From: Kitasatospora sp. NBC_00458
GTDB taxonomy: Bacteria; Actinomycetota; Actinomycetes; Streptomycetales; Streptomycetaceae
DNA length: 64,000 nucleotides
NCBI RefSeq assembly: GCF_036013975.1
Contig: NZ_CP107904.1
Coordinates: 1,426,001 to 1,490,000 of the forward strand
Reading direction: 5' to 3'
Numbering within the stretch: the first letter of the stretch is position 1; every line of letters begins with the position of its first letter. Below the pieces are notes generated by a model. The model did not search any database, was not told where the DNA came from, and was given only the letters and a program-made list of their open reading frames with translations. Positions 6,782-26,033 of this stretch are shown one piece after another. The translations under genes and the position numbers were made by a program.

Positions 6782-9709
6782 GTGAGCCGCCCCTCCACCG
6801 CCCCCGGTACCGACCTCGCCCGCGAACTGGCCGCCGTGCTGCGCGGCGAGGTCCGGTTCGGCGCCGCCGAGCGGACCGTCTACAGCCACGACGCCTCCAA
6901 CTACCGCCACCTGCCGCTCGGCGTGGTCAAGCCCGCCGACCTCGACGACGTGCGGACGGCGCTCGCGCTCTGCCGCGCGTACGGGGTGCCGGTCGTGCCC
7001 CGGGGCGCCGGGACGAGCATCGGCGGGCAGGCGATCGGCCCGGGCGCCGTGGTGTTCGACTTCCGCCGCCACCTCGGCGCCGTCCTGGCCGTGGACCCGG
7101 AGCGCCGCACCGCCCGGGTGGAACCGGGCACGGTGCTGGACGACCTCCAGCGCGCCGCCCGTCCGCACGGCCTGCGGTTCGGGCCCGACCCGTCGACGCA
7201 CTCCCGGTGCACCCTCGGCGGCATGATCGGCAACAACGCCTGCGGGGCGCACTCGGTGGTCTGGGGCCGCACCGCCGACAACGTCGAGTCGCTGGACCTG
7301 CTGCTCGCCGACGGCACCGAACTCACCGTCGGCGGCAGCACCGACGCGGCCGGGCGCGCCGCCCTCCGCGCCCTGCCCGGCCCGGTCGGCCTGCTCCACT
7401 CCCGGCTCCAGGACTTCACCGACCGCAACCTGGCCGCCATCCGGCAGGGCATGCCCGACCTGCCGCGCCGCACCTCCGGCTACCCGCTGGACGCCCTGCT
7501 GCCCGAACGCGGCCACCGGCTCGCCCGCGCCCTGACCGGCACCGAGGGCACCTGCGCCCTGCTGCTCGGCGCCACCGTCAAGCTGGTCGAGGAGCCGCCG
7601 GCCCGCGCCCTGGTGGTGGCCGGCTACCCCGACGAGACCGCCGCCGCCGACGCCGTCCCCGCCCTGCTGCCGCTCGGCCCGCTCACCGTCGAGGGCATGG
7701 CCGCCGACCTGATCACCGCACTGCTCGCGGCCGGCCCGCGCCCGCCGGCCCTCGACCGGCTGCCGGACGGCGACTGCTGGCTCTTCCTGGAGACCGGCGG
7801 CGCGACGCCCGCCGAGGCGCTGGACGCCGCCCGCCGGCTCGCCGACGCGGTGCGGCGCGAACGCACCGCCACCGTCTCCGTCGTCACCGACCCGGCCGAG
7901 CAGCGGCAGCTGTGGGGCGTGCGCGAGGCGGGCGCCGGCATCGTCACCAGGCTGCCGCGCGACACGGCCGGTGGCGGCTCCGGCCCCGGGGCCGCGGGCG
8001 GGGTCGAGGCCTGGCCCGGCTGGGAGGACTCGGCCGTCCCGCCCGAGCGGCTCGGCGACTACCTGCGCGACCTGCGCGCACTCCTGCGCCGGCACAGCCT
8101 GCGCGGCGTCCCGTACGGGCACTTCGGCGAGGGCTGCGTCCACCTGCGGATCGACTTCCCGCTCACCGAGCCCCAAGGGGTGCTGGTCTTCCGGGAGTTC
8201 ATGGAGCAGGCGGCCGACCTGGCGGTCTCGTACGGCGGTTCGCTCTCCGGCGAGCACGGCGACGGACAGGCCCGCGCCGAGCTGCTGCCCCGGATGTACC
8301 CGCCCGGGATCATCGCCCTGTTCGGGGAGTTCAAGCGGATCTGGGACCCGGAGAACCTGCTCAACCCGGGCGCCCTGGTCGACCCGCGCCCGCTCGACGC
8401 CGACCTCCGGTTCGGCGGCCCGCTGCGCGAACTGCCGCTCGCCCTCCCGTTCGAGCGGGACGACGGCAGCCTGGCCAAGGCGGTGCACCGGTGCGTCGGC
8501 GTCGCCAAGTGCGTGGACCCGACCACCGGGGTGATGTGCCCGAGCTACATGGCCACCGGGGAGGAGCGGCACTCCACCCGCGGCCGGGCCCGGCTGCTCG
8601 CCGAGATGCTGCGCGGCGAGGCCGTCCCGGACGGCTGGCGGTCGGCGGAGGTCCGCGAGGCGCTGGACCTCTGCCTGGGCTGCAAGGGCTGCGCGAGCGA
8701 CTGCCCGGTGCACGTCGACATGGCCACCTACCGGACGGAGTTCCTCTACCAGCACTACCGCCACCGGCTGCGGCCCGCCTCGCACTACGCGATGGGCCGG
8801 CTGCCGCTCTGGCTGCGGGCCGCCTCCTCGGCCCCCGGCCTGGCCAACCTGGTCGCCCGCTCGCCCGCCGCCGGCCTGCTGAAGCGGCTCGGCGGCGTGG
8901 ACCGGCGACGGGTGCTCCCCGTCCTCCCGCCGGAGACCTTCACCCGCTGGTACCGCCGGCACCGGGCCGGGCACCCCGCACCGGCCGGCGCGCGGCCCGT
9001 CCTGCTCTGGCCGGACACCTTCTCCGACCACCTCCAGCCGAACGTGCTGCGCGCCGCCGTCGAGGTCCTGGAGCACCTGGGCTTCGACGTCCGACTCCCG
9101 GCCGGTCCGGTCTGCTGCGGCCTGACCTGGTACTCCACCGGCCAACTCCCCGGCGCCCGGCGGGTGCTGCGGCGCAGCCTGGCCGCGCTGGACGCCACGG
9201 GGCTGCCGGCCGGCACCCCCGTCGTCGGGATGGACCCGAGCTGCACCGCGACGCTGCGCGAGGACCTGCCCCGCCTGCTCGGCGCGGAGGGCCGGCCACT
9301 GGCCGAACGGACCCGCACCTTCGCCGAGTTCGTCGACGAGTACGCGCCGGACGCGCCGCTGCCGCAGCTGCCGGTGGCCGCCGTCACGCAGACCCACTGC
9401 CACCAGCACGCGGTGCTCGGCAGCGCGGCGGACCGCCGGGTCGAGGCCCGGATGGGCGTCGACAACCGCGTGCTGGACTCGGGCTGCTGCGGGCTCGCGG
9501 GCAACTTCGGCTTCGAGCGCGGCCACTTCGAGGTCTCGGTGGCGATCGCCGAACGCGTGCTGCTGCCGGAGGTACGGGCGGCCTCGCCGGACACGGTGGT
9601 GCTGGCCGACGGCTTCAGCTGCCGCACCCAGATCTCCCAACTCGCCCAGGGGCGCCAGGCCCTGCACCTGGCGGAGCTGATGCAGCGGGCGCTGCGCGAG
9701 CAGGGCTGA
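6782..9709 (+). CDS. FAD- and FeS-containing D-lactate dehydrogenase-like oxidoreductase
   Basis: The 975-residue protein fuses a GlcD-type FAD domain to a GlpC-type iron-sulfur domain. FAD (PCMH) motifs are VVPRGAGTSIGGQAIGPGAVV and GGMIGNNACGAHSVVWGRTADNV (residues 70-170), followed by a substrate cap. Cysteines for two 4Fe-4S clusters occur near residue 570 (CVGVAKCVDPTTGVMCPS) and 631 (CLGCKGCASDCP). Two CCG domains end the protein (CCGLTW about 778, CCGLAG about 902). Proteins with this order oxidise D-lactate or related 2-hydroxy acids and pass electrons to quinone or cytochrome, but substrate identity is inferred. The GTG start at 6782 is preceded by GGAGG with good spacing. It appears monocistronic, with a palindromic element downstream. 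Confidence 0.93.
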   Translation: MSRPSTAPGTDLARELAAVLRGEVRFGAAERTVYSHDASNYRHLPLGVVKPADLDDVRTALALCRAYGVPVVPRGAGTSIGGQAIGPGAVVFDFRRHLGAVLAVDPERRTARVEPGTVLDDLQRAARPHGLRFGPDPSTHSRCTLGGMIGNNACGAHSVVWGRTADNVESLDLLLADGTELTVGGSTDAAGRAALRALPGPVGLLHSRLQDFTDRNLAAIRQGMPDLPRRTSGYPLDALLPERGHRLARALTGTEGTCALLLGATVKLVEEPPARALVVAGYPDETAAADAVPALLPLGPLTVEGMAADLITALLAAGPRPPALDRLPDGDCWLFLETGGATPAEALDAARRLADAVRRERTATVSVVTDPAEQRQLWGVREAGAGIVTRLPRDTAGGGSGPGAAGGVEAWPGWEDSAVPPERLGDYLRDLRALLRRHSLRGVPYGHFGEGCVHLRIDFPLTEPQGVLVFREFMEQAADLAVSYGGSLSGEHGDGQARAELLPRMYPPGIIALFGEFKRIWDPENLLNPGALVDPRPLDADLRFGGPLRELPLALPFERDDGSLAKAVHRCVGVAKCVDPTTGVMCPSYMATGEERHSTRGRARLLAEMLRGEAVPDGWRSAEVREALDLCLGCKGCASDCPVHVDMATYRTEFLYQHYRHRLRPASHYAMGRLPLWLRAASSAPGLANLVARSPAAGLLKRLGGVDRRRVLPVLPPETFTRWYRRHRAGHPAPAGARPVLLWPDTFSDHLQPNVLRAAVEVLEHLGFDVRLPAGPVCCGLTWYSTGQLPGARRVLRRSLAALDATGLPAGTPVVGMDPSCTATLREDLPRLLGAEGRPLAERTRTFAEFVDEYAPDAPLPQLPVAAVTQTHCHQHAVLGSAADRRVEARMGVDNRVLDSGCCGLAGNFGFERGHFEVSVAIAERVLLPEVRAASPDTVVLADGFSCRTQISQLAQGRQALHLAELMQRALREQG

Positions 9710-21747: not shown

Positions 21748-22590
21748 ATGGCCCAGTCCGACCAGAAGCCCCAGACCAAGCAGCAGTCCCGCAAGCAGGC
21801 GCAGAAGACCAGCGCCCGCGAGCGGATCCAGGAGGCCCAGCGCCAGGAGAAGCAGGCCGCGAAGCGCCGGCAGCGGATCGTCGGCGGCGTCTCGGTCGTC
21901 GTCGTGCTCGCCCTGGCCGGCGGCACCGCGCTCGCGATCAGCGCGGCCGGCGGCGACAAGTCCTCGTCCGACTCGGCGGCCGCCGAGCCCACCGCACTCG
22001 TCGTCCCGGCCAACACCTCCGGCCCGGACGGGACGGTGATCACCTACGGCAAGGCGGACGCCGCGCACACCCTTCAGGTGTTCGAGGACTTCCGCTGCCC
22101 GGTCTGCAAGAACTTCGAGGCGTCCAACGGCGACACCGTCAAGAAGCTGGCGGACGACGGCACGGTCAAGGTCGAGTACCACCTGGCCGCGTTCCTGGAC
22201 AAGAACCTCGGCGGCAAGGGCTCGCGCACCGCGCTGGCCGCGATCGGCGCCGCGGTGAACGAGGGCGTCGACAAGTTCAAGGCGTACCACGACGTGCTGT
22301 ACGCCAACCAGCCCGACGAGCGCGAGGACGCCTTCGGCGACGTCAACCACCTCCTCGAACTGGCCGACAAGGTGCCGGGGCTGAAGACGGACGCGTTCGT
22401 CAAGGCGGTGAAGGACCGGACGTACGCGCCGTGGGCGAAGAAGGTCGCGGACGCCTTCAACGACAGCGGCGTGACCGGCACCCCGACCGCGAAGGTGGAC
22501 GGCAAGCCGCTGACCCTGTTCAGCGGCAACCGCGGAGTGACGCCCGAGCAGTTCACCACCCAGGTGAAGCAGGCCGCGGGCTTGCAGTGA
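21748..22590 (+). CDS. DsbA-family thiol oxidoreductase, membrane anchored
   Basis: A highly charged Lys/Gln/Arg-rich cytoplasmic N-terminus (residues 1-43) precedes one membrane helix (IVGGVSVVVVLALAGGTALA). The extracytoplasmic thioredoxin-fold domain has the active site FEDFRCPVCKNFE and a cis-Pro loop GVTGTPTAKVDG. This is the common actinobacterial DsbA-like layout. It should introduce or shuffle disulfides in exported proteins. The next gene, a VKOR homologue 65 bases downstream on the same strand, would reoxidise it using quinone, so the two form a functional operon. The ATG at 21748 lacks a clear GGAGG (GGAG lies at 21733-21736). Confidence 0.92.
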   Translation: MAQSDQKPQTKQQSRKQAQKTSARERIQEAQRQEKQAAKRRQRIVGGVSVVVVLALAGGTALAISAAGGDKSSSDSAAAEPTALVVPANTSGPDGTVITYGKADAAHTLQVFEDFRCPVCKNFEASNGDTVKKLADDGTVKVEYHLAAFLDKNLGGKGSRTALAAIGAAVNEGVDKFKAYHDVLYANQPDEREDAFGDVNHLLELADKVPGLKTDAFVKAVKDRTYAPWAKKVADAFNDSGVTGTPTAKVDGKPLTLFSGNRGVTPEQFTTQVKQAAGLQ

Positions 22591-22655: not shown

Positions 22656-23327
22656 ATGACCGCCCCGACCGCCGTGCCCCGCTCCTCCCGCTCCGCCTCC
22701 GCCCAAGCCGCCGACCCCGCCCCGCCGGGCCGGGCGACGATCGGCGCGGGCCGGGCGTTCTCGCTGCTCGTCCTCCTCGGCGGACTGGTCGGGCTGGCCG
22801 CCTCGGCCGTCCTGACCTTCGACAAGCTCCGCATCCTTGAGGACCCGTCCTACATCCCCAGCTGCAACATCAACCCGGTGATCAGCTGCGGGTCGGTGAT
22901 GCGAACCGAGCAGGCCGAGGTGTTCGGCTTCCCGAACCCCCTGCTCGGGCTGGCCGCGTTCGGCGCACTGGCGGCGATCGGCGCCGGGCTGCTGGCCGGG
23001 GCCGCGTACCGGCGCTGGTTCTGGCTGGGCCTGCAGGCCGGCACGGTACTCGGACTCGGCTTCGTGCACTGGCTGATCGACCAGGCGCTGTACGACATCG
23101 GCGCGCTCTGCCCGTACTGCATGGTGGTCTGGGCGACGGTGGTGCCGCTGTTCTGGTACACGACGCTGCACAACCTGCGCTCCGGGGTGATACCCGTCGG
23201 ACCCCGGTTCCAGGTGGTCGTCCGGGAGGCCGCCCGCTACCACTGGGCGGTTCCGGTGCTCTGGGCCGCGGTGATCGGCCTGCTGATCCTCAACCGGTTC
23301 TGGTACTACTGGTCCACCCTGATCTGA
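22656..23327 (+). CDS. Vitamin K epoxide reductase (VKOR) family protein
   Basis: The four-to-five-helix membrane protein has both VKOR cysteine pairs: the loop pair in PSCNINPVISCGSVM and the quinone-proximal CPYC in IGALCPYCMVVWATV. VKOR family members transfer electrons from DsbA-type partners to menaquinone, the actinobacterial replacement for DsbB. The ATG at 22656 has GGAG nine bases upstream. An in-frame GTG at 22587 overlaps the dsbA stop (GTGA), so translational coupling from an N-terminally extended form is possible. Length 223 residues fits the family. A 13-base-pair terminator at 23357 closes the dsbA-VKOR unit. Confidence 0.92.
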   Translation: MTAPTAVPRSSRSASAQAADPAPPGRATIGAGRAFSLLVLLGGLVGLAASAVLTFDKLRILEDPSYIPSCNINPVISCGSVMRTEQAEVFGFPNPLLGLAAFGALAAIGAGLLAGAAYRRWFWLGLQAGTVLGLGFVHWLIDQALYDIGALCPYCMVVWATVVPLFWYTTLHNLRSGVIPVGPRFQVVVREAARYHWAVPVLWAAVIGLLILNRFWYYWSTLI

Positions 23328-23356
23328 CGGTCCGTCACCTCCTGACTCCACGTCAA

Positions 23357-23397
23357 CCACCCTTCCGGGAGCGCCGTCCCCGACCCCGGAAGGGTGG
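23357..23397 (+). terminator. Terminator after the dsbA-VKOR unit
   Basis: Perfect 13-base-pair hairpin, arms 23357-23369 (CCACCCTTCCGGG) and 23385-23397, with a 15-base loop, 29 bases after the VKOR stop. It separates that unit from the RiPP locus. The remaining 246 bases up to 23643 should carry the RiPP promoter; no clear -35/-10 pair could be picked. Confidence 0.75.
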
Positions 23398-23643
23398 GTC
23401 CGACACCGCTCCGGCCCCGCTGCTCCGCCCGGACTGCGTCCGCCCCGGCCGTCACCTGCACGGGCGAACATCCCGCGCGGCCCGCCGGTCCGGCCCGGAG
23501 GATGGGGAGCGGCCCCTCGCCCGTGGCGGTGCCCTTCCCGGGGCACCGGCCTCCCGGGGCGGGGCCGTTCGGCCGACGGCCGGGCCCGGGTCCCGACCAC
23601 CCGGCGACCCCGGCCGTCCCCAGCCTCCCCAGGAGAGAACACC

Positions 23644-23847
23644 ATGGCCAGTCAGGGACCCACCTTCGCCATCAGCACCTCGGACCTCACCCTCGACGAG
23701 GAGGGGCGGGTGCACATCCAGAACCCCCAGCTCGCCGAGTCGGTCGCGGCCGCGATGGCCTCGGCGCCGAACGTCGCGTCCCGCCCGAGCACCAACAACT
23801 GCCACGGCGGCAACTGTGCCAAGGGCTGCGGCTCGGTGCAGATGTGA
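23644..23847 (+). CDS. Putative RiPP precursor peptide with Cys-rich core
   Basis: The 67-residue peptide looks like a leader plus core. The leader is polar to acidic, with TLDEEGRVHIQNPQLAESVA at residues 16-35, a pattern (acidic turn, GRV.I..P.L) seen in other radical SAM RiPP leaders. The core, after about residue 47, is NNCHGGNCAKGCGSVQM: three cysteines at 53, 58 and 62 (CX4CX3C), with Gly, Asn and one His between. AGGAGA gives a strong ribosome-binding site. Its last Met codon and stop overlap the GTG start of the radical SAM gene, so precursor and enzyme are coupled. The product class (sactipeptide, ranthipeptide or other) is not decidable from sequence, and I do not recognise the precursor family. 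No leader peptidase or exporter is next to it. Confidence 0.82.
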   Translation: MASQGPTFAISTSDLTLDEEGRVHIQNPQLAESVAAAMASAPNVASRPSTNNCHGGNCAKGCGSVQM

Positions 23848-24899
23848 CCGGCTCCACCGGCGAACCGTCGCCGTTCGACCGGGAGTTCACCGAGTCCGTG
23901 CGCAGCGACCGGCTCCAGCTGATCCTGCTGCCGACCGAGCAGTGCAACTTCCGCTGCACGTACTGCTACGAGGACTTCGAGATCGGCCGGATGGCGCCGG
24001 ACGTGGTCGCCGGGGTGAAGAACCTCATCGACCGGCGCGCCGCCGGACTGCGGCACCTCCAGGTGTCGTGGTTCGGCGGGGAGCCGATGCTGGCCAGGCC
24101 GGTCATCGAGGAGATCACCGCACACGCCCGCGCGGCGCAGCGGCGGCACCCGGGCCTCGGCTACGAGAGCGACATGACGACCAACGGCTACCTGGTGGAC
24201 GGCCGGACCGCCGACCACCTGGCGGGCCTCGGCGTCCGGGCCTACCAGGTGTCGCTGGACGGTCCCGCCGCGTTCCACGACCTCACCCGGGTCCGGGCCG
24301 ACGGCCGGGGGACGTTCGAGCAGATCTGGCGCAACCTGGAGGAGGTCCGGGCCGGCTCCGCCGACGTGCGGATGCTGCTGCGGGTCCACCTCACCCCGGA
24401 GAACCTTCCGGCGATGCCGGAGTTCCTCACGCTGATCCGGGACACCTTCCTCGACGACCCGCGGTTCTCGGTCTTCCTGAAGCGCGTGGTGCGCCTGGGC
24501 GGCCCCAACGACGACACGATGGACGTGCTCGACTCCGACGACGGGAAGATCGCCGGACTGCGCGCGCTACTCACCCAGGGCGGCGGCGAGGAGCGCCTGT
24601 TCGCGCCGGAGGAGGTCTGCTACGCCGCCCGCGCCAACTCGCTGCTGGTGCGCGCCGACGGCCGCCTCGGCAAGTGCACGGTCGCACTGTCCGATCCGGC
24701 CAACGACATCGGCCGGCTGCTGCCGGACGGCTCGGTGGAGATCGACAACCCGCGGCTGCGCCCGTGGCTGCAGGGCTGGGCCGCGCGCGACCCGGAGCTG
24801 AACGCCTGTCCGTACTCGGCCTTCACCCGCGAGCCGGAGCCGGCGGCGCTGCCGCTGCTCCAGATCGCGAAGCGGCCTCCGGCGGCAGTCCCCGTCTGA
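23844..24899 (+). CDS. Radical SAM RiPP maturase with reduced SPASM/twitch-like domain
   Basis: The 351-residue enzyme has the radical SAM cluster motif CNFRCTYC (Cys34, 38, 41), the SAM-binding WFGGEPML segment (residues 76-83) and SLDGPAAFHDLTR. The C-terminal auxiliary region shows only three cysteines, at 259, 278 and 322 (CX18CX43C), fewer than the seven of a full SPASM domain, so at most one fully or partly ligated auxiliary cluster is expected. The GTG start overlaps the precursor stop by four bases (GTGA). It should generate a 5'-deoxyadenosyl radical and form a crosslink in the Cys-rich core, most simply Cys-to-carbon thioethers. It lacks an obvious N-terminal RiPP recognition element, so leader binding may rely on the catalytic domain or an unlinked protein. 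Confidence 0.88.
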   Translation: MTGSTGEPSPFDREFTESVRSDRLQLILLPTEQCNFRCTYCYEDFEIGRMAPDVVAGVKNLIDRRAAGLRHLQVSWFGGEPMLARPVIEEITAHARAAQRRHPGLGYESDMTTNGYLVDGRTADHLAGLGVRAYQVSLDGPAAFHDLTRVRADGRGTFEQIWRNLEEVRAGSADVRMLLRVHLTPENLPAMPEFLTLIRDTFLDDPRFSVFLKRVVRLGGPNDDTMDVLDSDDGKIAGLRALLTQGGGEERLFAPEEVCYAARANSLLVRADGRLGKCTVALSDPANDIGRLLPDGSVEIDNPRLRPWLQGWAARDPELNACPYSAFTREPEPAALPLLQIAKRPPAAVPV

Positions 24900-24936
24900 G
24901 CGCCCCGTCCGCCCCGGCCACCCCGCCCGGCCCGTT

Positions 24937-24962
24937 CGCCGCCCGGCCCGCGCCGGGCGGCG
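24937..24962. terminator. Bidirectional terminator between rSAM and serine hydrolase genes
   Basis: Perfect 10-base-pair hairpin (CGCCGCCCGG, 24937-24946, and complement 24953-24962) with a 6-base loop, filling the gap between two convergent stop codons. Confidence 0.6.
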
Positions 24963-26033
24963 TCAGCCGAAGACGGCCCGCCGGTAGGCGTTGCGCAGGT
25001 CGGTGAGCGGCTGGAAGTCCCGGTCGTAGTGGACCTTGTTGGTGAGAAGCAGCGCCCAGCGGCCGAGCCGCCGGGAGACCCAGATGCCGGTGCCGGTGAA
25101 GCCGTAGTGGACGAAGGTGCCCTCGGCCGGGTCGGTGCCCGCGGCGCAGAGCCAGGACAGGCCCCGGGCCGGCTCCAGGCCGCCGGTCTGCTCGCGCAGC
25201 GACTCGGCGAGCCACGGCCCGCCCCAGGGCAGGCCGGCCGGCGGGTCGAGCAGCGCGGTGAGGAAGCGTTCCAGGTCACGGGCGGTGGAGAAGGCGCCGG
25301 CGTTGCCGGAGACGCCGCCGAGCAGCCGGGCCGACGGGTCGTGCACCACTCCGCACAGCACGCCGCCGGCCGACCGCTCGTACTCGGTGGGCGCGGTGCG
25401 GGCGGCGAGGTCCGGGCCGAGCGGGCCGTACCGGGTGTCGGCCATGCCGAGCGGCTGCCAGACCTGGCGGGCGGCGAGTTCGTCGAGCGGCTCACCGGCC
25501 AGCGATCCGACCAGGTGGCCGAGCAGGACGGCGGCCCGGTCGGTGTACTCGACCGCGGTGCCGGGCGGGCGGTACAGCGGGGTGTCGAGCACGCCGGCCA
25601 GGATCGCCGCCCGGTCCCGCCCGTACAGTTCGGCGAACCGGGTGCGCAGCGGCATCCCGGCGGTGTGGGTGAGGAGTTGACGGGCGGTCACCTCGCCGGC
25701 GGGCCGGCCGGCGGCCTCCGGCCAGTACCGGCCGATGGGCCGGTCCAGGGGCAGCCGGCCGTCCCGCCAGAGCGCCCCGGCGCACGGCCAGAGCGCGACG
25801 ATCTTGGTGATGCTGGCGAGGTCGAAGACCGTGTCGTGGTCCGCCTCCCGCGCACCGTGCGGTCCGCGGCCCAGCACCCCGTACCGGCCCCGGCCGCGGA
25901 CGCCGCCGGCGTCGCCGACCGACCAGACGCCGCCGACCCCGACGGCGGCCAGTCCGGCCGTCACCAGTCCGTCCAATCCGCCTTCGGGTGCCACGAGTTC
26001 GGCCAGGGGCGCGGGACGCGCCGGTCCGCTCAT
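24963..26033 (-). CDS. Beta-lactamase-fold serine hydrolase (class C-like)
   Basis: The 356-residue protein has the catalytic SxxK tetrad as SITK in DTVFDLASITKIVALW, near residue 74. The second motif is YTD (in TAVEYTDRAAVLLGHL) instead of the usual YxN. It has the typical ARQLLTHTAGMP and WQPLGMADTRYGP segments. There is no signal peptide, so it is cytoplasmic or lipid-associated. Such proteins act as esterases, D-amino-acid peptidases or DD-peptidase-like enzymes; true beta-lactamase activity should not be assumed. It is convergent with the RiPP maturase, so any link to peptide processing is speculative. A GNAT gene starts 61 bases upstream on the same strand. Confidence 0.87.
   Translation of the reverse strand: MSGPARPAPLAELVAPEGGLDGLVTAGLAAVGVGGVWSVGDAGGVRGRGRYGVLGRGPHGAREADHDTVFDLASITKIVALWPCAGALWRDGRLPLDRPIGRYWPEAAGRPAGEVTARQLLTHTAGMPLRTRFAELYGRDRAAILAGVLDTPLYRPPGTAVEYTDRAAVLLGHLVGSLAGEPLDELAARQVWQPLGMADTRYGPLGPDLAARTAPTEYERSAGGVLCGVVHDPSARLLGGVSGNAGAFSTARDLERFLTALLDPPAGLPWGGPWLAESLREQTGGLEPARGLSWLCAAGTDPAEGTFVHYGFTGTGIWVSRRLGRWALLLTNKVHYDRDFQPLTDLRNAYRRAVFG

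Follow-up and report, generated by a model that had tools for sequence, protein, structure and literature searches.

Gene organization of the locus

On the plus strand of the window, i.e., the entire analyzed stretch of 64,000 nucleotides of Kitasatospora sp. NBC_00458 (75% G+C overall), a small gene (23644–23847, ATG to TGA) encodes a 67-residue peptide and is preceded by a likely ribosome-binding site, AGGAGA (23631–23636, plus strand, read from the sequence). The leader of this peptide spans approximately residues 1–50, as aligned with relatives, and is followed by a 17-residue tail, NNCHGGNCAKGCGSVQM (23794–23844, plus strand), which carries N51, N52, N57 and three Cys (C53, C58 and C62) in CX4CX3C spacing; the spacing N57-x4-C62 is common to the sister peptides. 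The stop codon of the precursor gene shares four bases, GTGA, with the GTG start of a second plus-strand gene (23844–24899, ending in TGA at 24899), which encodes a short-form radical SAM maturase of 351 residues with the cluster motif CNFRCTYC (23943–23966, plus strand; C34, C38 and C41). The peptide with its tail, the overlap, the radical SAM motif and the Cys spacing had been described in an earlier sequence-only reading and were borne out when the sequence was read again, while the leader, there termed acidic, is only mildly so, with five Asp/Glu versus two Lys/Arg (counted by eye) in residues 1–50. Third-position G+C amounts to 0.94 for the precursor gene and 0.96 for the enzyme gene, and the precursor has a single match across the genome (one contig, 8.01 Mb).

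A leader pattern, ..[DN]-x-x-G-x-[VI].., aligns the precursor with peptides whose genes adjoin that of the same enzyme in members of Actinomycetota and Pseudomonadota; with the window counted, such a leader is found next to this enzyme at 26 of the 34 loci. Because like leader and same enzyme recur together in this manner, the arrangement is not due to chance: precursor and maturase form a genuine pair, in line with the RiPP-type assignment made at the outset, and a crosslinked peptide is very likely to be its product. Although Pfam returned no domain and NCBIfam no model for the precursor, it is highly improbable that the small open reading frame is not a substrate and that the enzyme acts on something else, given the recurrent leader, the stop-start overlap and the same kind of tail in a plasmid set obtained later. 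At the level of sequence, the locus combines the general features of a ranthipeptide system, i.e., a radical SAM enzyme, an auxiliary cluster region (recognized by its three invariant Cys) and an adjacent Cys-bearing precursor.

Genomic context and distribution

Upstream of the pair lie a DsbA-like gene (21748–22590) and then a VKOR gene (22656–23327), and a gene for a beta-lactamase-family serine hydrolase (24963–26033, minus strand) is located downstream. When a further 24 VKOR loci from the genus were compared (1.5 kb on each side), all 24 were found to contain the DsbA-like gene and none the pair within 1.5 kb. The same site is clear for the 14 closest VKOR loci only (L116–L129), the other ten (65–73% identity there) perhaps representing a second VKOR copy; the genome of the window itself carries a second VKOR copy. 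The pair is missing from this site in all 14 close relatives: homology ends at 23327–23353 and picks up again at 24895–24967 in 12 of them, and the hydrolase comes next in 12 of the 14 loci (in L118 just 22 bases on). As delimited by this break in homology, the inserted segment extends approximately from 23340 to 24940 and holds only the two genes; because the site is empty in close relatives, some 1.6 kb with two genes was either gained here or lost elsewhere. Within the genus, the gap between the VKOR and hydrolase genes is variable, being near-empty (L118), occupied by a NUDIX gene (L117, with L119 and L120 similar by eye) or, in the window, occupied by the precursor-enzyme pair.

The empty site also rules out the DsbA-like and VKOR genes as parts of the system. 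Their position directly upstream would suit another radical modification that targets Asn or the backbone and leaves the Cys free for metal binding or disulfides, with the DsbA-like and VKOR proteins assisting, yet the DsbA-like gene occurs without the pair in all 24 other VKOR loci, so that the two look like ordinary neighbours, and we regard this course as having little probability.

The flanks differ among the actinobacterial loci examined (L002–L006, L140 and L141), with transposases in some, and together with the empty site in relatives these differences support the view that the pair constitutes a two-gene cassette. A minimal two-gene system, as proposed from the sequence, fits the actinobacterial loci, where no exporter of the C39/ABC type was seen beside the pairs examined (neighbours partly searched against Pfam), but not the proteobacterial ones, where 12 of 14 large neighbours, chosen by size, contain both C39 peptidase and ABC transporter domains. 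HlyD is found near the pairs of L010 and L016, and GG precedes the core in many proteobacterial leaders.

At E ≤ 1e-50, the enzyme was matched in two of 70 genomes of the genus, i.e., that of the window and one with a long-form relative (L047). Matches were found in five of 394 genomes of the family and six of 394 of the class (the window's counted in both), in 14 of 297 genomes of the family of Nonomuraea (short and long forms pooled) and, at E ≤ 1e-40, in ten of 246 genomes of the family of a Pseudoalteromonas locus. Among 72,556 plasmid records, ten contain relatives of the enzyme, and six were typed as conjugative.

Several of these loci have contents of their own. The long-form relative of L047 occurs with a different Cys-tailed peptide, ..NGNCKSCPVNGIC. 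In Neokomagataea (L008:8936–10636), the enzyme is followed by a single protein combining Fic and 2OG-Fe(II) oxygenase domains, with transposase-like open reading frames nearby (by eye). On a Deinococcus plasmid that encodes lantibiotic dehydratases (L146:53–2678), a long-form relative has two small peptides with Cys in its vicinity, one of them of the same leader type.

The maturase

For the enzyme, Pfam returned Radical_SAM alone above cut-off (2.7e-17) and no SPASM match. The best NCBIfam score was obtained for TIGR04463, a radical SAM/SPASM RiPP maturase family, yet at 128.5 bits versus a cut-off of 525 (219.6 bits for L023 and 218.5 bits for L055, both long relatives), and the PapB family (NF047865) gave 97.5 bits versus a cut-off of 340. 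An existing family label was rejected, as none of the 25 NCBIfam families listed, of 66 matched, comes near its cut-off.

The C-terminal auxiliary domain reported in the sequence-only reading is present in shortened form. A Twitch-like region (24618–24809, plus strand) has three invariant Cys (C259, C278 and C322), spaced C-x18-C with one later Cys in the clade of the window, while the other four SPASM Cys of long relatives are absent. In the alignment, these three Cys and C34, C38 and C41 are kept in 32 of 32 short-form rows, and the other four SPASM Cys are found as well in 19 of 19 long-form rows (of which nine belong to the Streptococcus-type genus); the short clade thus has three of the seven Cys that mark a SPASM domain with two auxiliary clusters. 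A wider alignment of 39 ‘short’ rows includes two long-form Deinococcus rows (L142 and L146), whose tails, as judged, explain single Cys at 319, 328 and 346 and the one absence of C322; a Cys at 336 occurs in another row.

An enzyme that clusters among non-peptide radical SAM enzymes would be at odds with a role in RiPP maturation. The enzymes closest to that of the window are for the most part peptide maturases, and it is with these that it groups. In trees built as quick searches with SH-aLRT support only, it falls together with five Nonomuraea-type enzymes (SH-aLRT 99) and within a 32-member clade of short enzymes found in Actinomycetota and Pseudomonadota (SH-aLRT 100); enzymes from Streptococcus make up another clade, with 21 rows (SH-aLRT 99), so that the window enzyme does not share a clade with the likely NxxcB enzymes. 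Rows left out of the trees were fragments (L013, L043, L105, L110 and L111), L026 (motif absent) and L039, L044, L045, L112, L114 and duplicates; eight long-branched rows were dropped in addition from a later tree, in which L145 (proteobacterial, very long branch) lies outside the short clade. No description of the short-form clade was found in the open-access literature searched, and it may have been described earlier in subscription papers, which were outside that scope.

The predicted model of the enzyme (mean pLDDT 86.8) has as its top fold match CteB, the SCIFF maturase (PDB 5WHY/5WGG; Z 24.2 over 304 residues at 4.4 Å), tied with anSME (24.1) and with ChlB at 23.7. Sequence matches to solved enzymes are weak, the best again being CteB (1.3e-13). 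The CteB match of the window enzyme starts only at CteB residue 72, and for the model of long relative L023 (pLDDT 81.8) the match begins at CteB residue 1 (Z 26.9, 389 residues, 4.8 Å). As the N-terminal domain of CteB is a leader-binding RRE (PMC6231123) and the match omits CteB residues 1–71, the short-form enzymes seem, judging by these models, to be without the N-terminal RRE domain that CteB possesses. With three Cys ligands (C259, C278 and C322), one iron site could remain open, as has been reported for MoaA, CteB and SkfB (PMC6231123, PMC9012708). The enzyme is also predicted to resemble SkfB in having a shortened SPASM domain, one auxiliary cluster and an open site, although SkfB, as described in the same source, has an N-terminal RRE and CX33CXC ligands (PMC6231123).

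Asn/Asp upstream of Cys in the precursor family

The leader pattern, which is blind to Asn in the core, retrieved 29 precursors from 26 of the 34 short-form loci. These contain 89 Cys, of which 46 have Asn or Asp at -3 (17.5 expected) and 24 at -4 (16.0 expected). In the 26 non-redundant precursors (80 Cys; near-copies L003, L005 and L059 omitted), the corresponding counts are 46 at -3, with 15.9 expected and 0 of 3000 shuffles as high, and 24 at -4, with 15.1 expected (0.7% of shuffles), and downstream offsets are not raised (+4: 10 seen, 12.4 expected). The most common spacing among the relatives of the window, [ND]x2C, is present in 21 of these 26 precursors, and in 17 proteobacterial cores it occurs at 39 of 56 Cys (11.6 expected). 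For example, L015 encodes a peptide with eight Cys and [ND] at -3 of every one, L051 encodes two peptides with three N-x3-C in each, and the peptide of L019 has one Cys only, with Asn at -3 and no Asn downstream.

The counts omit eight of the 34 loci, of which L008, L010, L014, L067 and L075 have a Cys-bearing small open reading frame that follows the rule in part only, and L022, L025 and L076 have no visible precursor; these eight loci weigh against the Asn–Cys reading. Four L015 peptides (at 9152, 9386, 9630 and 10051) are likewise outside the counts; extra pattern matches in L003, L022, L025 and L026 and fragments within enzymes were discarded as false open reading frames, and the precursor starts of L002, L003, L004 and L059 were shifted by hand to an alignable start.

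The range N-x2-4-C had been noted before the plasmid set was found. This set was drawn from seven of the ten plasmid records (three further Bradyrhizobium records were left out) and comprises nine Cys-bearing peptides, selected either from annotation as small genes or through a match to the leader pattern, three of them beside long-form Deinococcus enzymes (the Cys-less small gene L146:5094 was omitted). Asn or Asp occurs at -3 to -5 of all 19 Cys in these peptides (8.1 expected; maximum of 16 in 4000 shuffles), and Asn alone at -3 to -5 of 18 (6.3 expected). In an actinobacterial set of 12, three from the plasmid set, Asn is found at -3, -4 or -5 of 27 of 33 Cys (11.6 expected) and at -5 of 11 (4.3 expected), with 4 seen versus 3.2 expected at offset +4. 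In the 12 short-type actinobacterial precursors of the chromosomal search, [ND] at -3 shows no enrichment (7 of 33 Cys versus 5.7 expected), and in nine non-redundant actinobacterial precursors Asn is raised at -4 (8 of 24 versus 3.1 expected, 0.35% of shuffles) and not clearly raised at -5 (6 of 24 versus 3.2, 7.8% of shuffles). These data show that, in the relatives of the window peptide, Asn or Asp precedes Cys as a rule.

The sequence-only reading had proposed a search for a conserved GGNCxxGC tail. GGNCxxGC, with CX4CX3C, occurs in five of the 12 short-type actinobacterial precursors, namely the window and four close sisters; since it is absent from the other seven, and since Leu replaces the middle Cys in L004 and L006, the motif is only partly conserved, and Cys spacing was dropped as a family signature. 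L004 and L006 still have Asn at -5 of the last Cys. What recurs is Asn/Asp before Cys, which names a partner residue and points to known NxxC chemistry.

A sactipeptide-like outcome, in which the same pair would form Cys-to-alpha-carbon thioethers with acceptors beyond Asn, appears unlikely, if somewhat less so than the other alternatives considered. It is favoured by the fold match (Z 19.5) to SkfB, a Twitch-domain sactisynthase with three visible cluster ligands (PMC6231123), and by the presence of Asn among the listed sactionine acceptors (PMC8326336). Known sactipeptides, bar ruminococcin C and streptosactin, are however described as having N-terminal donor Cys and C-terminal acceptors (PMC8326336), whereas the enrichment in the relatives of the window lies on the opposite side of the Cys and strongly prefers Asn/Asp at fixed upstream offsets.

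Likely substrates range from one Cys (L019) to eleven (L013). Peptides with 5 to 11 Cys, mostly with [ND] at -3 or -4, are encoded at L015:7691–10757 and L013:9216–9623 and are predicted to be many-ring peptides. Long-form actinobacterial relatives (L052–L055 and L061–L064) have short acidic upstream peptides with a single terminal Cys, mostly ..IDFGC or similar ([ND]x2C).

Relatives of the enzyme in Bacillaceae/Paenibacillus adjoin a conserved small open reading frame in which Asn is present and Cys absent, which speaks against an Asn–Cys thioether, as Asn conservation in such Cys-less frames means that it need not indicate a thioether. These frames also favour the other radical modification considered above for the DsbA-like and VKOR neighbours; against that course, the spacing of Asn and Cys is held within limits, and a reaction independent of Cys would require no such constraint. 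The Cys-less frame, ..RPAxSxxQAxN[ST]GRxxKSVPGxL.. (pattern by eye), is located after long-form relatives, with a ribosome-binding-like site, at L023:9089–9184, L024:3473–3559, L031:9055–9153 and L018:5908–6003, and is perhaps another RiPP precursor.

The tail of the window peptide

In the window, Asn occupies positions -1 and -2 of C53, -1 of C58 and -5 of C62, and none stands at -3. Neither [ND]x2C nor [ND]x3C is present, a situation shared with one Nonomuraea sister only (two of the 26 non-redundant precursors), and the tail is thus an outlier within its own family, which counts against the Asn–Cys reading, as does the separate clade of the Streptococcus enzymes. Because the tail has no NxxC and its last Cys alone fits, as N-x4-C, the window was not filed as an NxxC member. 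Besides four sisters, L004, L006 and the S. canus plasmid peptide ININCVAGCG show the C62/N57 spacing.

The tail is also free of Asp and hence of the CX3D of the PapB family, C53-x3-N57 being the nearest equivalent. PapB joins CX3D and tolerates Cys-to-Asp separations of zero to six (PMC9413430), and C-x3-N occurs in L006 as well as in the window and its CxGGNC sisters; it is accordingly conceivable, at a low probability, that in the subclade of the window C53 is joined to downstream N57, with another role for C58 and C62. Against this direction stand offset +4, which is not enriched in the family or in the actinobacterial set, the single Cys of L019, and the PapB family score of the enzyme.

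Proposed mechanism and comparison with known systems

On balance, and with modest confidence, the sequences favour a ranthipeptide-like peptide, made by a two-gene RiPP cassette, in which Cys sulfur would be joined to an upstream Asn as a thioether. In this scheme, the leader would be recognized by an enzyme without an RRE domain of its own, a 5'-deoxyadenosyl radical would form at the C34/C38/C41 cluster, and hydrogen would be abstracted from the side chain of a tail Asn, most likely at C-beta. The Asn carbon would then be bonded to the sulfur of a Cys farther downstream, which is probably held at the sole auxiliary cluster (C259, C278 and C322), where three Cys would leave an iron site free, to give a short peptide with Cys-to-upstream-Asn thioether rings. 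For the window, C62–N57 (N-x4-C) is the likeliest ring, C53 would probably pair with N51 or N52, and C58 is uncertain. We infer here the crosslink, its carbon and its partners in the window peptide, as well as the cluster state and the leader removal, export and use of the product.

The enzyme is most likely a stripped-down relative of a type known from streptococci. NxxcB joins Cys23 to the C-beta of Asn20, three residues upstream (PMC8326336, PMC13361665, PMC11002830). As in NxxcA/NxxcB (Streptococcus orisratti, S. porci), a short Cys-bearing peptide with Asn before Cys is encoded beside a homologous radical SAM enzyme, and the likely NxxcB homologues L089, L091 and L092 show 27–29% identity to the window enzyme. 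In the streptococcal enzymes compared, the SPASM motif has its full seven Cys and the N terminus is extended, whereas neither holds for the clade of the window, and the peptide follows the enzyme in L089, L091 and L092 but precedes it in the window. L092 is presumably the S. orisratti enzyme, being followed by an N20/C23 peptide, with a CGG-type peptide (L113) in the same genome (cf. PMC13361665). Several streptococcal relatives have N-x1-C tails. Within the Streptococcus-type genus (L085–L114), 28 of 284 genomes contain enzyme relatives, several with a small peptide bearing N-x1-C or N-x2-C.

The proposed bond to the C-beta of an Asp/Asn-type side chain, the adjacent genes and the three-Cys AC1 are shared with PapA/PapB (freyrasin, Paenibacillus polymyxa). 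The substrate Cys of PapB is thought to be bound at AC1, a three-Cys cluster, and PapB without AC2 gives little product in a single turnover (PMC10470005). Unlike in the window, the PapA acceptor is downstream of the Cys and PapB retains AC2; the window clade resembles PapB without its second auxiliary cluster. Thioether chemistry, as proposed here, is shared with CteB. On sequence grounds, the best-supported view is that the system works like the NxxC and PapB systems, yet it departs from the former in two defining features and stays below the family cut-off of the latter.

Implications

A broader reading, tentative and slightly short of an even chance, is that the short enzymes may represent a scattered, unnamed branch of thioether-forming radical SAM maturases. 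This branch would have naturally lost its second auxiliary cluster along with the leader-binding domain, and would staple Cys to Asn/Asp over more than one encoded spacing, chiefly x2 in proteobacteria and x2, x3 or x4 in actinobacteria. If so, one auxiliary cluster would suffice for repeated turnover, and Asn–Cys stapling, known from streptococci, would reach two or more further phyla. What the second auxiliary cluster does in SPASM enzymes has been termed unclear (PMC9012708); this question becomes directly testable, because the clade is, by its Cys, without that cluster, seems to have no recognition domain in the enzyme and acts on likely substrates of 1–11 Cys. The Asn-before-Cys rule, finally, offers a simple predictor of rings in uncharacterized peptides.
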